From: Aquabacterium sp.
GTDB lineage: Bacteria > Pseudomonadota > Gammaproteobacteria > Burkholderiales > Burkholderiaceae_C
Reading direction: 5' to 3'
Assembly: GCA_030654395.1 (NCBI GenBank)
Contig: JAURXM010000104.1
Location: 62,001 to 126,000 of the forward strand
Length of the DNA: 64,000 bases
Under the pieces are notes generated by a model. It saw only the letters and a list, made by a program, of their open reading frames with translations, was not told where the DNA came from and did no database searches. Made by a program: the position numbers and the translations under genes. Of this stretch, positions 45,141 to 57,931 are shown in pieces; position 1 is the stretch's first letter, and every line of letters starts with the position of its first letter.

Positions 45141-46076
45141 TCAGCCTTTTTTGGCAGCGCTGGCCGAACGGCGGATCGCTTCGTTGATCTCCCGGATGGA
45201 GCGCTCTATTTCGGCCTCATCTAAGTCGTCATCGCCCACATTTTGACCTGGCGTGCCGGTGTTGCCGACGCTGGCCTGGATGGTGGATGCAAACACCGCG
45301 TCACCCAATGTGTCTGTGGATACGTTGGGTTGGTCTTCGTTGAATGCAGATTCCCATTCCATGGCCAACACGGTCACGTTGTCGCACTTGACACCGCCAT
45401 TGCGCAAAGCCAATTCGACCAGTTCTGGCACCGCATCAGAGATGGTGCGGGTGGCCAAATTGCGGGTGATTTCATCGTCCTCGACGGTGCCCCACATGCC
45501 ATCGGAGCACAGCATGATGCGGTCACCCTCTTGCATGATCAGCGGGCCTGCTGTGTCCACGACAGGCTTGCCCGGGCTACCTAAGCAGGTGAAGAGCACG
45601 TTGCGGTTGTAGCGGTCGTCAAGCGGGACAACGGATGACAGGGTGTGTTGCAACTCGGAGTAGGAGTGGTCGCGTGTCCGCGCAATGAGTTTGTCGCCGC
45701 GCACAAAGTACAAGCGTGAGTCGCCGCAGTGCGCCCAATAGGCTGAGTTGCCTTGCAAGATGCAGGCAACGATGGTGGTTCTGGGTGTGTCGATCATGCC
45801 CCGTTCGCTGGCATACCGCAGCAGTTGGTGGTGACCGGCCATGATGGCGTCTTGCAAAAAGCGGATGGGGTCACTCAGTGTGGGGCGGGCATCACGCTGG
45901 TAGAGCGCAGCCATGGTCTGCAGCGCCAGTTGGGATGCGACTTCGCCTTCTGGGTGTCCACCCATGCCGTCTGCCAAGGCAAACAGACCTGAATCGCGCG
46001 TGTAGCAATAGCCCATGCGGTCTTCATTTTTTTCACGTCCGCCCTTGCGGCTGATCTGGTAAACAGAGAACCTCAT
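45141..46076 (-). CDS. PP2C-family serine/threonine phosphatase
   Basis: Metal-dependent protein phosphatase of 311 residues. PPM motifs: EDRMGYCYTRDSGLFALADG with GMGGHPEGE near the N-terminus, AHCGDSRLYFVRGDK, TRDHSYSELQ and LCSDGMWGTVEDDEI; the Asp residues coordinate Mn/Mg. The C-terminal 70 residues are acidic and not catalytic. It overlaps the kinase gene by 4 bases (ATGA), so kinase and phosphatase form a reversible pair. Confidence 0.93.
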   Translation of the reverse strand: MRFSVYQISRKGGREKNEDRMGYCYTRDSGLFALADGMGGHPEGEVASQLALQTMAALYQRDARPTLSDPIRFLQDAIMAGHHQLLRYASERGMIDTPRTTIVACILQGNSAYWAHCGDSRLYFVRGDKLIARTRDHSYSELQHTLSSVVPLDDRYNRNVLFTCLGSPGKPVVDTAGPLIMQEGDRIMLCSDGMWGTVEDDEITRNLATRTISDAVPELVELALRNGGVKCDNVTVLAMEWESAFNEDQPNVSTDTLGDAVFASTIQASVGNTGTPGQNVGDDDLDEAEIERSIREINEAIRRSASAAKKG

Positions 46077-47041
46077 GCTTTGGCACCCGATTTGAGGTTT
46101 TCAAGTTGGAGCTTCACGCGCTCCGCGAAAGTGAGTTTGGAGTAGCGACGCTCGGTCTCTCGGGCTAGCTCTTTTTGCAAAGCAAAAACGCTTTGCGGGC
46201 GTGCCAGAGGATCGAGTGACATGCACCATTCCGTCACCTCGATGAGGTTATCTGAATAGACGTTGCGCAAGCGAGATAGAGAAAGCCCTAAGCGGTCTTT
46301 TTCCAGACGTTGGGGCGAATCGTTGGGGGGATAGCCCTGCATGCAGGCATAAATGCACGCCCCAATCGCGTAGATGTCCGTCCAAGGTCCCAGTGAGCCG
46401 TCGCGGCGGTACATTTCGGGCGCAGCAAAACCGGGTGTGTACATTGGGCGGATGAAGTTGCCTTCTTTGGACAGCACTTCGCGCGCGGCACCGAAATCGA
46501 GCAGCACGGCTTTGTTGTCGTTGGTGATGAAGATGTTGGCCGGTTTGATGTCCAAGTGCAGCATTTTGTGCTGATGAACAATGCGCAAACCACGCAAAAT
46601 CTCGTCGAACAGCGAACGGATGCTGGACTCGCGAAAGACTTTGTCGCGCTTTAAATCGCGGGCCGTGACGATGAAATCTTGCAGCGTGTCGCCCTGCAAA
46701 TAGTTCATCACCATGTAAACGGTTTCATTTTCTCGGAAGAAATTCAACACAGACACCACACTGGGGTGGGCAATCTGGGCCAAAGAGCGGCCTTCTTCGA
46801 AAAAACTTTTGAGACCTAATCGGTAGAGCGGCTGCTTGTCGGGTTTGACGCGCGGAATCAACTCACCAGCGGCGCGGTCTGCGAGGGAAGCGGGCAGATA
46901 TTCTTTGAGTGCGACGAGTCTTTTGTCGGGGTCCTCGCAAAGATAAACGACACCGAATCCGCCTGCGGCGAGCTTTTTGACGACCTGATAGCCGCCCACT
47001 ACGGTGCCCGAGGGCAACGGGGCAGGTTTCGGCTTTGACAT
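46073..47041 (-). CDS. Hanks-type serine/threonine protein kinase
   Basis: Soluble kinase of 322 residues with all main motifs: glycine loop AAGGFGVVYLCED (about 25-37), Lys46 in VALKEYLPA, the catalytic loop HLDIKPANIFITN, DFGAARE and APEMYRRDG. No transmembrane or PASTA domain is present, so it is cytosolic. It pairs with the overlapping PP2C phosphatase gene. It starts a minus-strand unit with rdgB and hemW, divergent from yicC (30 bases between starts). Confidence 0.92.
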   Translation of the reverse strand: MSKPKPAPLPSGTVVGGYQVVKKLAAGGFGVVYLCEDPDKRLVALKEYLPASLADRAAGELIPRVKPDKQPLYRLGLKSFFEEGRSLAQIAHPSVVSVLNFFRENETVYMVMNYLQGDTLQDFIVTARDLKRDKVFRESSIRSLFDEILRGLRIVHQHKMLHLDIKPANIFITNDNKAVLLDFGAAREVLSKEGNFIRPMYTPGFAAPEMYRRDGSLGPWTDIYAIGACIYACMQGYPPNDSPQRLEKDRLGLSLSRLRNVYSDNLIEVTEWCMSLDPLARPQSVFALQKELARETERRYSKLTFAERVKLQLENLKSGAKA

Positions 47042-51853: not shown

Positions 51854-52023
51854 AGGGGGATTGTGCCCAATCCTTGGGGGGTGCCTAAACCGTCATTTGT
51901 TCACGGCAGCCCATCTTTTGTGCAGATAAAAGGACACCACGTTGCTTTTAATCTCGCAAAAATGAAATCAGTGCCGATAACAGAGCCAAGACTTCATTTC
52001 AACGAGAAAGTGGAAGGTACGCG

Positions 52024-52710
52024 ATGTCTCAAGTGATCCCGCTCGGCCCTGCTGCACGCATGCTGACAACCCGTGAAGTAGCTGTGCGTTTAGGCGTGTC
52101 GTTGCGCACCGTGCAACTGTGGGTGGAGGCCGACATCCTGCCTGCGGCGCGCACCCCAGGGGGGCACCGCCGCATCCCCTATAACGCGGTCGAGGCGCTG
52201 GCGATGAGCACGGGCCTTGGTGGCGAACCAGTCCTGCGCTCAGGTCTGAGCGGTCGTGATGCCAAAGCCGCGGTGACCGCCTCTCAAGGGGGCTTGAATG
52301 AGTCTTCACATGCAACGGCACCTTTAGAGGTTTTGTTGGTCGCCGATGATCAAGATTGGCAAATCCGTTGTGCCCAAGCGATGGCGCCTTACGGGCCTGC
52401 TGTCAGCTTGCGCTATGCCGAAACAGGCTATTTGGCATTGCTGCAAATTGGGCAAAAGGCACCTGATCTGCTCATCACGAATTTGGATTTACCCGGTATG
52501 GATGGCATGGCCATGCTCCGAACCTTGGAGCGCTGCGAACCCATTGCCAATATGCGGGTTTTGGTGCTCACCGCATGCAGCGATCAAGAGATATCGATCC
52601 GAGGCGGTTTGCCTCAATCGGCCGAAGTGCTGCGTTTGCCCGTGACGGCAGAGACGGTTGCGGTGCGTGTGGGGCGCTGGTTGCTGGGGCAACGCGCTGT
52701 GTCGCGATAA
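52024..52710 (+). CDS. Excisionase/MerR-type HTH fused to a degenerate receiver
   Basis: Protein of 228 residues. An N-terminal winged HTH (about 12-62) reads LTTREVAVRLGVSLRTVQLW and GGHRRIPYNAVEAL, the excisionase/MerR-like type that recognises short DNA sites. A linker of about 40 residues leads to a receiver (about 101-222) with Asp108/Asp109, Asp155 in TNLDLPGMDG and Thr183. The conserved Lys before the cis-Pro is Leu205 (RLPVT), so phosphorylation signalling may be altered. The HTH-first order is the reverse of most response regulators. It opens the signalling island and lies 19 bases before the next gene; it could be the transcriptional output. Confidence 0.85.
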   Translation: MSQVIPLGPAARMLTTREVAVRLGVSLRTVQLWVEADILPAARTPGGHRRIPYNAVEALAMSTGLGGEPVLRSGLSGRDAKAAVTASQGGLNESSHATAPLEVLLVADDQDWQIRCAQAMAPYGPAVSLRYAETGYLALLQIGQKAPDLLITNLDLPGMDGMAMLRTLERCEPIANMRVLVLTACSDQEISIRGGLPQSAEVLRLPVTAETVAVRVGRWLLGQRAVSR

Positions 52711-52729
52711 AAACCAAAGAGGCTCCACC

Positions 52730-53854
52730 ATGAACGAGGCATTTCGTCAGTTGTTCGACCAGGTCAAGAGCGGTGTGGTTTGGGTGCAGCGCAATGGCGT
52801 GGTGCGCTACGCCAACAAAGCCGCTGTCCAGATGACGCCGGTTATTTTGGGGCAGCCCATGCTGGACCCCGTGGCCGAGCGAACCGTGAAGGCGGCAGGG
52901 CAAAGCATGCTCCAGCTGCCCTTTGCTTTTGAGTTGACCACGCAGGAAACGCACCCCGATACCATTCGCGCCTCGGTGATCAATGCCCCGGTGGGGCAAG
53001 ACCTGATGGTGGTGCTCAACAACGTCTCTGAAGAACGCTGGTATGCACAGGCGCTGGAGAACCTCATTGGCTACGTTGAGGCTGAGATGGCAGCACCGAT
53101 TGAAGCACTCGCTTTGAAACTACCCCAAACCGCACAGTTGGTGCAGCAACAGGGTGCAGCCGGTGATCTCAAAGTGATGGTCAATGAGGCCGCAGCCTTG
53201 TCTCTCAAGCTGGGTAAATTGCGAGACTTGGTCGCCGTTTTTGGTGAAAGCGCCATGCAACGCGACGAGCGCATCATGTTGCCCACTTTGTTGCAGCAAG
53301 CCTTGGCTGAGGTGATGCCTCAAGCGCGCGCACGCAACGTCACCATCGCCTTTGCGGCCATCGCGGATGAGTTGCCTGTTGTCTATGGCAGTGCGCACTG
53401 GTTGAGTAAGGCCGTATCTGAGTACCTTGAGCAATCGATCAGAAGCGCTCAGTCCGGTGGTTTGATCGAGCTGTCAGTTCAAAGTGTGGGCACACGCGTG
53501 GTGGTGCGGGCACGCAATCAGGGCTTGTTCGTATCCAACCATGAGCGTCGCAGCGCCTTTGTGCCTTTCGGCGTAGGTGATTCGGCCAAACCCGGTGACC
53601 AACGCCGCGGTATCGGGCTGGCTTTGGCTCAGCGGATATTGACTCAGCATGGCGGCTCGGTGCGCATTGAGGATGAGTTTGACAGCGTGGACTTTGTACT
53701 CGAAATACCGGCTGGTGCACCAGCCACACAAGACGCGCAGTTGTCCGTTGATCAGGCGCAACGCTACGCATTGGACATGGCTGCGCTGATGGCACGCAGC
53801 ATGAGTAAGAAGCTCAAGCTGGACGACACGCCCAGCGCCCAGTCACCACAGTAA
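52730..53854 (+). CDS. PAS protein with histidine-kinase-like C-terminus lacking the phosphoacceptor His
   Basis: Soluble protein of 374 residues. A PAS domain spans about 1-100 (VKSGVVWVQRNGVVRYANKA). A helical dimerisation-like segment spans about 105-175, and a HATPase-like domain about 180-330. Where the H-box HELRTPL should be, the sequence is AEMAAPI, with Ala118 in place of His. The N-box Asn is not seen (EYLEQSIR), and the G1 box is ARNQG rather than DxGxG. Only the G2 box RRGIGLALAQRI is well kept. It is therefore probably a scaffold or pseudokinase rather than an active kinase. AGAGG precedes the ATG. It lies between the HTH-receiver gene and a single-domain receiver gene. Confidence 0.82.
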   Translation: MNEAFRQLFDQVKSGVVWVQRNGVVRYANKAAVQMTPVILGQPMLDPVAERTVKAAGQSMLQLPFAFELTTQETHPDTIRASVINAPVGQDLMVVLNNVSEERWYAQALENLIGYVEAEMAAPIEALALKLPQTAQLVQQQGAAGDLKVMVNEAAALSLKLGKLRDLVAVFGESAMQRDERIMLPTLLQQALAEVMPQARARNVTIAFAAIADELPVVYGSAHWLSKAVSEYLEQSIRSAQSGGLIELSVQSVGTRVVVRARNQGLFVSNHERRSAFVPFGVGDSAKPGDQRRGIGLALAQRILTQHGGSVRIEDEFDSVDFVLEIPAGAPATQDAQLSVDQAQRYALDMAALMARSMSKKLKLDDTPSAQSPQ

Positions 53855-53864
53855 GGAGCTCACG

Positions 53865-54245
53865 ATGGCACACCGCATTTTGATCGTTGAAGACCAAGCC
53901 GACATCTGCAAACTCATTCGCATGACCTTGGCGTTTGGGGACTTTGAAATTCACGAAGCCAATGACGGTGAAACCGGACTCAATATGGCACGTGCCGTCA
54001 AACCTCATTTGATGCTGCTGGATGTGATGATGCCGGGTTTGCTCGATGGCTACCAAGTGTGTGAGCGCATCAAACAAGATCCTGCATTGCGTGAGATTCA
54101 GGTCGTGATGCTGACAGCGCGTGGCCAAGCCACTGACCTTGCTTCGGGAGAGGCTGCTGGGGCAGACGCCTATTTGGTCAAGCCATTCAGTCCGATTGAG
54201 TTGCTCGACCGTGTAGAGGGCATGGTGGCAGGACTGACTGTCTGA
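53865..54245 (+). CDS. Single-domain response regulator (CheY-like)
   Basis: Receiver of 126 residues with no output domain: HRILIVEDQADICKL, phosphoacceptor Asp53 in LLDVMMPG, Thr84 in MLTARG and Lys106 in YLVKPF, all canonical. It starts 10 bases after the pseudokinase gene and ends 41 bases before the LOV kinase gene, so it is the most likely direct phosphate acceptor of that kinase. Without an output domain it would act by protein contact or as a phosphate shuttle. Confidence 0.9.
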   Translation: MAHRILIVEDQADICKLIRMTLAFGDFEIHEANDGETGLNMARAVKPHLMLLDVMMPGLLDGYQVCERIKQDPALREIQVVMLTARGQATDLASGEAAGADAYLVKPFSPIELLDRVEGMVAGLTV

Positions 54246-54286
54246 GTTTGGATGCGGGTATCGGTCGCTCCTAGCGGGAGAAGGTC

Positions 54287-56410
54287 ATGAGCCACAGCAC
54301 GGTGAACGATGAACTGCCTGAGGCGGTTGTCAGTGCACTTAAGAAGTTGGAGAGCCTAACTGGCCGCATTCCCATTGCGGTTGCGGTTGCGGCCATTTTG
54401 AGTGTCGGTGTGGCGGTGACTGCGTGTGTGGTCGGTGCCGTTTGGTGGGCAGAGAGTTGGTCGCGTCAGGCCACCATGTGGGGCGCGGCAGGTGTAGGCG
54501 TGCTGTTCACCTTAGGGAGCTTGCATGTTTATTTGATGCTCATCTCGACACGCAGGCGTGCCAGAGATATGGCCAGGGATATGTCGGCGGCACTGCAACA
54601 TACACAATCACGCAATCAGGCTGTGATGGACACGGCGCCTGATGCCATCATCATGACCGATGGACAAGGGGTGGTGTGCTGGTGCAACCAAGCGACGACC
54701 AGTTTGTTTGGCCGTGAGTTGCCCTCATTGATTGGTCAGGGTATTGGGACCATTTTGCCCGTGCTGCACCGTGATGCAATAGATCAGTGGTTTGAACAGC
54801 GTGGGTTCTCAGGACGAGTGATTGGCTTTGAGTCGACTGGATTCAGGGCGGAGGGGACCGCGTTCCCCGTGTCGCTGTCAGCTCGGCGTGTCGAGCTGGA
54901 TGGCGAGTTGATGCAGACCTTCATCGTGCGTGACACCACTGACGCCAAATGGGCAGAGCAGGAGCTGGTGCTGCGTGAGCGTGCTTTGGCCTCGTCTGCG
55001 GATGGCGTGATCATCACGTCGATGACCTTGCCCAATCAGCCCATCATTTATGTGAACAAGGCGTTCGAGTTGATTACCGGATATGAAGCTGATGAGGTGC
55101 TGGGGCATAACTGTCATTTTTTGCAGCGCGCTGATGTCAATCAACCTGCCATTTCAGTCATGCGAGAGGCGATAGCACAGGGGAAGAGCTGCCAAGTTGT
55201 GGTGCGTAATTACCGCAAAGATGGCGGACTGTTCTACAACGACTTGGCTATCTCACCTGTCTTGAGTGCTGAGGGGGTTTTGACACATTATGTGGGTGTG
55301 CAAAACGACATCACGGCACGCATCGCATCTGAGGCTGCGCTATACCTGCGTACGGAGCGACTCAATGCGGTGTTTGATCTCAGCCCCGACGGTTTTGTTG
55401 TGCTGGACAAACGAGGCGAGGTCAGTATTGTGAACCCCGCCTTTGAGCGCATGACCGGGCTGTTTGCCGGTGACATGGTGGGTCAATCTGTGGTGGCCTT
55501 TGAAGATGCACTGATGGCGCGTTGCACTGCAAGCGATGCCATTGTTGGTGAGGTGCCGGGGCGTGATTTGCTCCATATGCACACGCCCACTGTGCGGACC
55601 TTGCTCAGGCGGGTGCGCCACGGCGCACAGGAGCAAGACACGGTCATGTACTTCAGAGACATCACCCATGAGTTGGAGGTGGACCGGATGAAGAGCGAGT
55701 TTCTGGCCATGGCGGCACACGAATTGCGCACGCCGATGGTCAGCATATTTGGCTTCACGGAGTTGTTGCTCAAGCGCCAGTTCAAGGATGAGCACCGCCA
55801 AGACATGCTCGGTACCATCCACAAACAAGCGGGCATCTTGATTAACTTGGTCAACGAGTTGTTGGACTTGGCGCGGATCGAGGCGCGACGCGGTAAGGAT
55901 TTCAACCGCCGTTTGCAACCCGTTTGGCCGATCATTGAGCAGGCTTTGGCCGGCTTGAAAGTGCCAGACGACAGGCCTAAGGCAAGCGTGAGTTTGGATG
56001 TGACGGATGTGCTTGTTGCAGCAGACACGGACAAGCTGGGGCAGGCGGTGCTCAATGTGCTGTCCAACGCGTACAAATACTCGCCCAAGGGCGGCGACAT
56101 CCAACTTCGAGCGATCTTTGATGCAGACCAGCAGCAGGTGGTCATTGAAGTCCAGGATAAGGGTATTGGCATGTCGCCCGATCAGCTGGCGAGGGTGTTT
56201 GAGCGCTTCTTCCGTGCTGACCCATCAGGCAACATCCCTGGCACAGGTTTGGGTATGAGCTTGGTCAAGGAGATTGTCAGCCTGCATCAAGGCACCGTTG
56301 ACGTATTGAGCACCTTGGGCGAGGGCACCACGGTGCGCTTGCGTTTGCCAGCGCAAATGAGCCCCGAATCAAGGGGGGTCGAGGAAGAAGGCAAGGTAAG
56401 CACCGGCTGA
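54287..56410 (+). CDS. LOV-domain membrane histidine kinase (candidate blue-light sensor)
   Basis: Kinase of 707 residues. Two membrane helices lie at about 29-56 and 62-88. PAS-1 (about 110-220) is followed by a LOV-type PAS (about 232-345), PAS-3 (about 355-460), a HisKA domain with His478 in AAHELRTPM, and a HATPase with LNVLSNAYKYSP, DKGIGM and GTGLGMSLV. The LOV core has GHNCHFLQ with Cys276, the residue that forms the light-induced flavin adduct; His277 replaces the usual Arg. Flavin-contacting Asn308 (NYRKDG), Asn318 (FYNDL) and Gln339 (VGVQND) are all present. Blue-light sensing is thus predicted; function is inferred. It follows the CheY-like gene by 41 bases. Confidence 0.9.
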   Translation: MSHSTVNDELPEAVVSALKKLESLTGRIPIAVAVAAILSVGVAVTACVVGAVWWAESWSRQATMWGAAGVGVLFTLGSLHVYLMLISTRRRARDMARDMSAALQHTQSRNQAVMDTAPDAIIMTDGQGVVCWCNQATTSLFGRELPSLIGQGIGTILPVLHRDAIDQWFEQRGFSGRVIGFESTGFRAEGTAFPVSLSARRVELDGELMQTFIVRDTTDAKWAEQELVLRERALASSADGVIITSMTLPNQPIIYVNKAFELITGYEADEVLGHNCHFLQRADVNQPAISVMREAIAQGKSCQVVVRNYRKDGGLFYNDLAISPVLSAEGVLTHYVGVQNDITARIASEAALYLRTERLNAVFDLSPDGFVVLDKRGEVSIVNPAFERMTGLFAGDMVGQSVVAFEDALMARCTASDAIVGEVPGRDLLHMHTPTVRTLLRRVRHGAQEQDTVMYFRDITHELEVDRMKSEFLAMAAHELRTPMVSIFGFTELLLKRQFKDEHRQDMLGTIHKQAGILINLVNELLDLARIEARRGKDFNRRLQPVWPIIEQALAGLKVPDDRPKASVSLDVTDVLVAADTDKLGQAVLNVLSNAYKYSPKGGDIQLRAIFDADQQQVVIEVQDKGIGMSPDQLARVFERFFRADPSGNIPGTGLGMSLVKEIVSLHQGTVDVLSTLGEGTTVRLRLPAQMSPESRGVEEEGKVSTG

Positions 56411-56433
56411 CATGCCTTGCGGCGTACCTCAAA

Positions 56434-57186
56434 ATGAACACGCCTGTGAAAATGATGGGGTGGGCAGGCACCTCTCAGATGGAGTTCGGCGTGAACGTGA
56501 AGGTCGTGGGGGCACGGGGCCAGTTGTGGCGCTGGTTGTTGTTGGTCGTCTATTGCGGCGGTTTGCTGGGCTTGGCGCTGTTTTTGCGTCAACCCCATAT
56601 GCACCATTGGTTAGATCCGCAGGCCCTGAGTGTGATGGGGCGTCAATGGCTCGATGCCCCCTTGGGGCCTTTGGCCGTGATGGCTGGCTACGTTGTGGCG
56701 GTGATGCTGGGCATGCCTGTGCTTGTGCTGATCACGGTTGGGGCCTTGATTTTCAGCCCTTGGCCTGGCATGGCTTACGCTTTGTTCGGCATGGTGCTTG
56801 GTGCCGTGGTCACTTATGGCATGGGTCGTTTTGCCGGTGCACAAACCATGGACAGATGGACCACAGGGCGCTTGTCGCTGGTCTCTCGTCACCTTCAAAA
56901 GCGCGGCTTGTTGACTGTCATGGCCATACGTGTCTTGCCGGTCGCCCCTTTCATCATGGTCAATATGCTGGCGGGTGCTTTGCGTGTCCGCTTGTTTGAC
57001 TATGCGCTGGGTACCTTCTTAGGTTTGTTGCCTGGCACGGTACTGATTTCCCTGTTCATGGGGCGCTTGACCGCAGCTTGGCAATCACCTGGCTGGGGCA
57101 GTTATGTGGCCTTGCTTGCTTGCGCTGTGTTGCTCGGCGTTGCCTTTTGGGTGACACGCAGGCGTTTGAGCCGCGTTGCTTCGTGA
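56434..57186 (+). CDS. TVP38/TMEM64-family membrane protein
   Basis: Integral membrane protein of 250 residues with about 6 hydrophobic segments. The VTT/SNARE-associated core has GMPVLVLITVGALIFSPWPG, ALFGMVLGAVVTYGMGRFAG and IRVLPVAPFIMVNMLAGALR, characteristic of the TVP38/DedA-related group. Relatives in other organisms move or scramble lipids; the role here is unknown. It starts 23 bases after the LOV kinase, in the same direction. Later in-frame ATGs (56452, 56455, 56479) could be the start. Confidence 0.78.
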   Translation: MNTPVKMMGWAGTSQMEFGVNVKVVGARGQLWRWLLLVVYCGGLLGLALFLRQPHMHHWLDPQALSVMGRQWLDAPLGPLAVMAGYVVAVMLGMPVLVLITVGALIFSPWPGMAYALFGMVLGAVVTYGMGRFAGAQTMDRWTTGRLSLVSRHLQKRGLLTVMAIRVLPVAPFIMVNMLAGALRVRLFDYALGTFLGLLPGTVLISLFMGRLTAAWQSPGWGSYVALLACAVLLGVAFWVTRRRLSRVAS

Positions 57187-57293
57187 GCTAAAGCCAGAAA
57201 AGCACATCAGTTGTTGGGTGACTGTCAACTTAGCTCTCTGAGCGGCTGGGCTAGGCTAGGTGATTCTGTATCCCGTCTAAGGTGAGGTTATTT

Positions 57294-57656
57294 GTGAGTA
57301 AAACTATTTTGATCGTTGACGATGCAGGCAGTATCCGGCAAGTGGTCAATATGGCGCTGACCAGGGCGGGCTACAACGTGATTGAGGCCGTTGATGGCTT
57401 GGACGCTTGTGCAAAGCTGGTGACACCCAAGCTTGACCTGATCATTTGCGACTTCAATATGCCACGCATGGATGGGCTCACGTTTGTAAAGCACGTCAAA
57501 GAGTCGGCACACAAATTCACGCCTGTTTTGATGCTCACCACGGAGTCGAGCCCAGCTATCAAGGCTGAAGGCCGCGCAGCAGGCGTGCGGGGCTGGGTGG
57601 TTAAACCGTTTCAACCTGCTCAATTGGTGGATGCGGTCGCCAAACTGTGTGCTTGA
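57294..57656 (+). CDS. CheY-like chemotaxis-type response regulator
   Basis: Single receiver of 120 residues: SKTILIVDDAGSIRQVV, Asp53 in CDFNMPRMDG, Thr in MLTTESS and Lys104 in WVVKPFQPAQLV. The end resembles chemotaxis CheY proteins that act on the flagellar switch. The GTG at 57294 has GGTGAGG 6 bases upstream; a GTG at 57282 lies inside that site. It is 107 bases after the TVP38 gene. Its link to the LOV island is by position only. Confidence 0.85.
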   Translation: MSKTILIVDDAGSIRQVVNMALTRAGYNVIEAVDGLDACAKLVTPKLDLIICDFNMPRMDGLTFVKHVKESAHKFTPVLMLTTESSPAIKAEGRAAGVRGWVVKPFQPAQLVDAVAKLCA

Positions 57657-57740: not shown

Positions 57741-57817
57741 TGGTGCGGCTGGCAGGAATTGAACCCACGACCCCTTGGTTCGTAGCCAAGTACTCTATCC
57801 AACTGAGCTACAGCCGC
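57741..57817 (-). tRNA. tRNA-Arg (anticodon ACG), copy 2
   Basis: A 77-base minus-strand tRNA, GCGGCTGTAGCTCAG at the 5' end and encoded CCA at the 3' end. The anticodon stem CTTGG/CCAAG encloses CTACGAA, giving ACG; its A34 is normally deaminated to inosine so that it reads CGN codons. The sequence is identical to the copy at 57855-57931. Confidence 0.97.
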
Positions 57818-57854
57818 TAATTTTTTCTCGGTGCACCGTTTTCTGGGGAGAAGC

Positions 57855-57931
57855 TGGTGCGGCTGGCAGGAATTGAACCCACGACCCCTTGGTTCGTAGC
57901 CAAGTACTCTATCCAACTGAGCTACAGCCGC
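57855..57931 (-). tRNA. tRNA-Arg (anticodon ACG), copy 1
   Basis: A 77-base minus-strand tRNA identical to the copy at 57741-57817 and separated from it by 37 bases. It is probably the first gene of the pair's transcript. A TATAGT hexamer on the minus strand (57948-57943) is a plausible -10 box; I could not see a good -35. Confidence 0.97.

Follow-up and report, generated by a model that had tools for sequence, protein, structure and literature searches.

Three adjacent genes at positions 52730-56410 of the window, the whole 64,000-nucleotide stretch of Aquabacterium sp. DNA analysed here, may form a betaproteobacterial signalling cassette in which a membrane histidine kinase would phosphorylate a small receiver and a catalytically dead kinase (pseudokinase) would read out the state of that receiver, with the DNA-binding protein encoded directly upstream, which carries a helix-turn-helix (HTH) domain, working independently of phosphorylation. 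We place this proposal about midway between acceptance and rejection. As judged from sequence, the kinase and the receiver of the cassette appear to be live and the pseudokinase to be dead. The cassette lies in an island of six plus-strand open reading frames, for which the original prediction had proposed a single light-responsive pathway with the HTH protein as its transcriptional output. All six frames were found where they had been predicted, with successive gaps of 19, 10, 41, 23 and 95 bases. The island seems to consist of three layers, namely the cassette (pseudokinase, receiver and PAS/LOV kinase), the upstream HTH protein, and a VTT-type membrane protein and a last CheY-like receiver which look like neighbours.

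Composition and occurrence of the cassette

Close, full-length homologs of the pseudokinase were found in 18 of the 41 other Aquabacterium genomes among the 100 genomes searched, and in all 18 the HTH-receiver, pseudokinase, receiver and kinase genes follow one another in that order, an outer gene being cut by a contig end in two. Thus, as had been anticipated, the homologs of the first four genes are collinear and not scattered, which indicates that they are not arranged so by chance. When named genomes were scanned, 68 loci were obtained, of which 61 (L052-L112, 16 of them from Aquabacterium, including L059 of Aquabacterium commune DSM 11901) were analysed and the last seven, being weak or partial, were left out. 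The other named loci belong to the Sphaerotilus group, Rhodocyclaceae, Rubrivivax/Roseateles, Undibacterium, Curvibacter, Rhodoferax and a few unplaced lineages. A receiver is present in the locus of 60 of the 61 pseudokinases, at a distance of no more than 200 bp in 55, and a kinase is encoded downstream in 55. No description of this cassette was found in a full-text literature search that covered part of the open-licence papers.

The first cassette gene (52730-53854) encodes a 374-aa protein matching Pfam PAS_8 and HATPase_c and not HisKA, with a PAS domain, a DHp hairpin, a CA domain and a C-terminal helix (residues 333-365). The original prediction had noted the missing acceptor His of this protein, but the losses go further: Ala118 stands for the His, Gln235 for the N-box Asn and Asn263 for the G1-box Asp. 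Among 62 pseudokinases including that of the window, the acceptor His is absent in 60, the G1 Asp in 54 and the N-box Asn in 32, and the acceptor site is occupied by A, D, T, S, R, H, Q, I or C. The Tyr typical of DivL was found at this site neither in the window nor in any of the 62, while the more general DivL-type trait, a kinase fold with its acceptor His replaced, is seen in the sequence and the fold model of the window protein. Kinases of this kind use an E-x-x-T motif following the His for phosphatase action; E-M-A-A follows the lost His in the window, and a few relatives retain E-x-x-T or E-x-x-N. The model (mean predicted local distance difference test score 78, predicted template modelling score 0.60) shows a PAS-DHp-CA kinase fold with the tail as a helix after the CA domain, and its structure matches include DivL (4q20) and NifL (9qq6). 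In this tail, Q342, A343, Y346, A347 and D349 are invariant in a 47-sequence alignment. Across the 18 genus relatives the pseudokinase is full-length with 71-79% identity and its frame is open in 15; in the other three the match crosses one stop, the frames there being 362-365 aa. A scripted test flagged no natural pseudokinase-receiver fusion.

The 126-aa single-domain receiver encoded by the second gene (53865-54245; Pfam Response_reg) retains the acceptor Asp53 and its catalytic residues. Asp10, Asp53, Thr84 and Lys106 are invariant in all 61 sequences, and position 9 is Glu or Asp. At 42 distant loci the mean identity to the window copy is 60% for the receiver vs 28% for the pseudokinase, as expected for a protein held by several partners. 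Moreover, the kinase-core family (E 1e-45) and the receiver family (E 1e-40) occur together in 24 of the 42 same-genus genomes and are jointly missing from the other 18, with the receiver cut-off chosen after the matches had been seen; relaxing it to 1e-30 adds two genomes whose receiver has ~55% identity. The genome of the window itself holds a second receiver of this family (L198, G000:C122:18000-31000), encoded beside a DUF3391-HD protein, a CheY-like receiver and a divergent kinase of the cassette-kinase core family, in a region which also has genes resembling those of polysaccharide synthesis, as judged by eye.

The third gene (54287-56410) encodes a 707-aa membrane kinase of the order PAS-LOV-PAS-HisKA-HATPase (Pfam: three PAS, HisKA and HATPase_c), which carries HELRTP and is thus predicted to be an active histidine kinase. 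Its LOV domain has the adduct Cys, Cys276, in GHNCHFLQ (motif G.NC..LQ), and its best matches among solved structures are LOV photoreceptors (7r5n, E 2.1e-33 over residues 2-122 of 127). The Cys is kept in 18 of the 19 genus sequences and lost in L032. The Gln in the last LOV strand, which contacts the flavin, is present in the window and nine more of these 19 sequences, with Ala in eight and Thr in one. The LOV domain of the window is probably functional, as its sequence suggests, and would tune the kinase by blue light; the originally noted pairing of a pseudokinase with a LOV kinase holds. The proposed light response is accordingly plausible for the window but does not appear to be a general trait of the wider cassette family, since the LOV Cys motif is found in 25 of the 55 downstream kinases of the named loci. 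The window kinase resembles Brucella LOV-HK in having a LOV domain with the Cys ahead of the kinase, and differs from other LOV histidine kinases in being a membrane kinase with two further PAS domains and in belonging to a family of which only a part has LOV. In 17 of the 18 genus relatives, the kinase has ~200 extra residues between two membrane segments, which are missing in the window and in G023; one such long kinase (L052) was scanned and gave no Pfam match before residue 316 at E 0.001. In the G023 kinase gene (L032/L053), neither the ~200-aa domain nor the LOV Cys is present.

The kinase core occurs in six copies in the genome of the window, with 50-100% identity, behind varied sensor parts including CHASE and PAS. 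The core (window 55649-56356) does not evolve in line with its own PAS part or with the neighbours tested, and has possibly been exchanged with paralogous kinases. In the named loci, other proteins accompany the cassette. HD-domain proteins are encoded at 22 of the 61 loci, all of them outside Aquabacterium, and in L082 and L091 the gene separates that of the pseudokinase from that of the receiver. H-NOX proteins were found at 5 loci, and phosphonate-binding-type proteins at 7 with a cut-off of E 1e-20 and at 8 by clustering. Pfam was run on one representative of each of these three kinds (HD_5 in the HD protein) and on a single neighbouring HNOBA kinase, the core of which looks by eye like the core of the cassette kinase. 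Such neighbours are suggestive, and no more than that, of exchangeable sensors around a constant receiver.

Presence of the cassette was mapped on a quick RelSpoT and GreB tree of 39 of the 42 genomes, with G009 and G011 taken as outgroup after midpoint rooting had separated them. At least six changes are needed, and well supported branches make four of them unavoidable. Absence of the cassette probably reflects loss and not gain, gains at the same site being the alternative. Partial forms were also seen: G002 keeps the HTH-receiver, receiver and VTT genes and lacks the pseudokinase and kinase at the locus, and in three Sphaerotilus-group genomes the HTH gene is followed by receivers with no pseudokinase in between.

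The HTH protein, neighbouring genes and upstream region

The gene at 52024-52710 encodes a 228-aa protein with a MerR/excisionase-like HTH (Pfam HTH_17/MerR) and a receiver which scores 41.4 bits against Response_reg (cut-off 30.2) and has Asn153 in place of the acceptor Asp. With Leu205 at the Lys site, both the phospho-acceptor Asp and the Lys are replaced, a loss absent from the otherwise accurate domain description of the original prediction; the protein is thus an Aspartate-less pseudo-receiver and not a canonical response regulator. Consequently, only two of the three receivers of the island are predicted to be able to take phosphate. Aspartate-less receivers joined to DNA-binding parts are a described kind, and RitR likewise has Asn for Asp in a receiver joined to a DNA-binding domain (PMC4395418). 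The HTH protein differs from RitR in its MerR/excisionase-like HTH at the N-terminus and in the stepwise intermediates among its relatives.

These intermediates comprise proteins with both Asp and Lys kept, with Asp kept and Lys lost, and with both lost. Within Aquabacterium, the Asp is lost in 34 and the Lys in 35 of 36 sequences: the acceptor site of the 19 cassette sequences is Asn in 12, His in five, Thr in one and Asp in one, with Lys in none, and that of 17 greB-adjacent sequences without the cassette is Asn in 11, His in two, Thr in three and Asp in one (G009), which is also the only one of the 17 to retain the Lys. Outside the genus, all 36 HTH-receiver proteins retain the Asp and 34 of them the Lys; both exceptions belong to the Sphaerotilus group, further members of which also lack the Lys. 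Close pseudokinases are missing from 23 of the 41 other same-genus genomes, a set which includes G020 (with a distant cassette elsewhere in the genome) and G027 (with a cut contig bearing the kinase and VTT genes). greB was located in 21 of the 23. The HTH-receiver gene adjoins it in 17 of these, was not found there in three and is undecidable on a short contig in one; in 14 of these 21 loci the VTT gene follows it directly. This persistence indicates that the HTH protein can do without the cassette. Most simply, decay of its receiver preceded several cassette losses or was unconnected with them. The protein was probably an ordinary phospho-regulated response regulator in the ancestor, and later became phosphorylation-independent in most Aquabacterium. 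With the acceptor gone, any effect of the cassette on the HTH protein must be by protein contact, and such modulation is the most that can be proposed. The idea that the pseudo-receiver decays faster where the cassette is missing was dropped, because its rate ratio to the core, 2.47 vs 2.19 (L219 and pairs with a core distance of 0.02 or less excluded), differs too little.

Downstream of the cassette, the VTT/TVP38-type gene (56434-57186; 250 aa, Pfam VTT) follows in 15 of the 18 other cassette genomes, two having no VTT gene there and one contig ending earlier, and was also seen in 16 of the 21 greB loci without the cassette. The gene for the last CheY-like receiver (57282-57656; 124 aa, Pfam Response_reg), for which GTG 57294 is a possible alternative start, was found at the locus in one of the 18, three contigs being too short to show it, and relatives of its product occur in all 42 genomes at E 1e-30. 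These two proteins, originally counted among the pathway members, are probably neighbours and not parts of the cassette.

Upstream of the HTH gene, an element at 51900-51967 on the plus strand, recognized in alignments of 16 and then 32 Aquabacterium upstream regions, consists of TTCACG (51900-51905) and CTCGCAAAAATGAAA (51953-51967). Where both blocks were found, cassette-less genomes included, their distance is 52-55, mostly 53, with a spacer of variable sequence; the second block is missing in three of the 32 regions and altered in others. In G015, G039, G004 and G013 it sits two bases ahead of the start codon. This block has no other mismatch-free match in its own genome, and with up to two mismatches 17 matches (7 and 10 by strand) were obtained vs 37 (19 and 18) for a reversed control, so that a genome-wide regulon was dropped. 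A conserved upstream reading frame beginning in the ATGAAA block was ruled out because length and frame vary, and no Rfam family matched the element. Some flagellin promoters of these genomes, looked at as the sigma-28 promoter type, read TCAAG...GCCGATA; upstream of the operon, the 16 regions show no more than a partial -10-like GCCGATA with a different -35 and variable spacing, so that a sigma-28 promoter is at most a possibility there.

Two tRNA-Arg (acg) genes, 37 bases apart, lie directly past the island (57741-57931), and two flagellin genes (G000:C100:129516-131005) lie ~3.5 kb past the end of the window; in several relatives flagellin genes are found on the contig of the cassette some 14-15 kb away from it. 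A Ser/Thr-kinase-like protein (window 46073-47041) has 95-98% identity in the nine relatives where it was seen, and the products of the next genes, YicC, Gmk and RelSpoT, mostly have 76-88%.

Proposed signal flow and its alternatives

NifL, a kinase-fold PAS protein, controls its transcription factor NifA by contact. The pseudokinase is likewise a kinase-fold PAS protein (fold match 9qq6), and the two systems differ in that the HTH protein persists without the pseudokinase. To our knowledge, how a pseudokinase reads a phosphorylated receiver has mostly been established for a single circuit of the alphaproteobacterial cell cycle, that of DivL. In this circuit, DivL is reported to sense phosphorylated DivK with no kinase or phosphatase activity involved (PMC4211667). 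The DivL-DivK-CckA system of Caulobacter resembles the cassette in combining a PAS-bearing pseudokinase of kinase fold with a small receiver, and differs from it in that DivL has Tyr at the His site, serves cell-cycle control and acts through CckA (PMC4211667). In contrast, the cassette has Ala at the His site in the window, its receiver and sensor kinase are co-encoded, and its sensors vary. Drawing on DivL as a sensor of phosphorylated DivK, we propose that the PAS/LOV kinase would phosphorylate the small receiver, and that the dead pseudokinase would bind the phosphorylated receiver without catalysis and pass its state on by altering a partner protein, in the way known from DivL and DivK. 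The window kinase, whose domain between the membrane segments is absent, would probably take its input from blue light.

Several observations weigh against this proposal. The pseudokinases are not equally dead, as two of the 62 keep the His and 30 the N-box Asn, and the model of the window protein matches DivL no better than it matches active kinases. That kinase and receiver occur together is to some extent trivial, both genes lying in the cassette, and the HTH-receiver gene is found somewhere in 46 of the 61 pseudokinase loci, so that a functional link is possible. Evolutionary rates of the pseudokinase gave partial correlations of 0.52 with the receiver, 0.81 with the sensor part of the kinase, 0.52 with the pseudo-receiver and 0.06 with the kinase core (17 genomes), but a control neighbour, HemY, is equally correlated (0.69 with the pseudokinase and 0.87 with the pseudo-receiver; 13 genomes), and rate covariation was therefore rejected as proof of partnership. 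Unlinked relatives of the kinase core occur in 14 of the 19 cassette genomes vs three of 21 others, G020 and G027 being set aside; this excess is not significant on the tree (~2.3 of four independent pairs in the same direction, none opposite), and a link of these kinases to the cassette was dropped.

In the one light pathway of the original prediction, the LOV kinase would control the HTH protein via the small receiver and with the aid of the pseudokinase, and the VTT and CheY-like proteins would be further outputs. This model agrees with the fixed order and short gaps in the 18 other genomes and with HTH receivers that, outside Aquabacterium, nearly all keep Asp and Lys. Within the genus, in contrast, the Asp of this receiver is gone from 34 and the Lys from 35 of the 36 sequences, the HTH and VTT genes are kept at 17 and 16 of the 21 loci without the cassette, and the CheY-like gene stands at one of 18 cassette loci, three being too short to show it. 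Moreover, that the cassette stays whole in many relatives and is lacking in others argues against a simple light-to-gene chain. We consider this reading quite unlikely, and the claims of an HTH output and of VTT and CheY-like members are not supported.

A non-transcriptional output is possible, though doubtful: the phosphorylated receiver, alone or via the pseudokinase, would act on an HD-GYP enzyme or the like and thereby on cyclic di-GMP, exopolysaccharide or motility. The HD-domain proteins at 22 of the 61 loci, two of them inside the cassette, point this way, as do the companions of the second receiver, with its DUF3391-HD protein and putative polysaccharide genes. Neighbourhood is not proof, however, and no HD-domain gene was seen adjoining an Aquabacterium cassette; flagellin genes, present in all 42 genomes with or without the cassette, do not explain its presence. 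That the pseudokinase is a decaying, functionless gene carried along would fit its three lost catalytic sites, but appears highly improbable given its identity and open frames among the genus relatives, its invariant tail residues and its absence, within the genus, together with the kinase at the locus.

Returning to the kinase-receiver-pseudokinase cassette, a wider version may be advanced only tentatively, namely that Betaproteobacteria have a portable, DivL-like reversed signal flow. Exchangeable sensors (LOV, H-NOX-associated, CHASE and periplasmic binding) would feed a near-invariant receiver, and a dead kinase would read it and gate, through contact alone, a transcription factor with a decayed receiver of its own; once that factor had become independent of phosphate, the cassette would have become dispensable and been lost repeatedly. 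A compact, co-encoded cassette in several betaproteobacterial families, together with relatives lacking all or part of it, would make the logic of such a circuit testable gene by gene. In addition, the family offers LOV kinases with natural losses of the Cys or the conserved Gln in an otherwise constant setting, and the series of HTH proteins suggests the stepwise freeing of a response regulator from its kinase.

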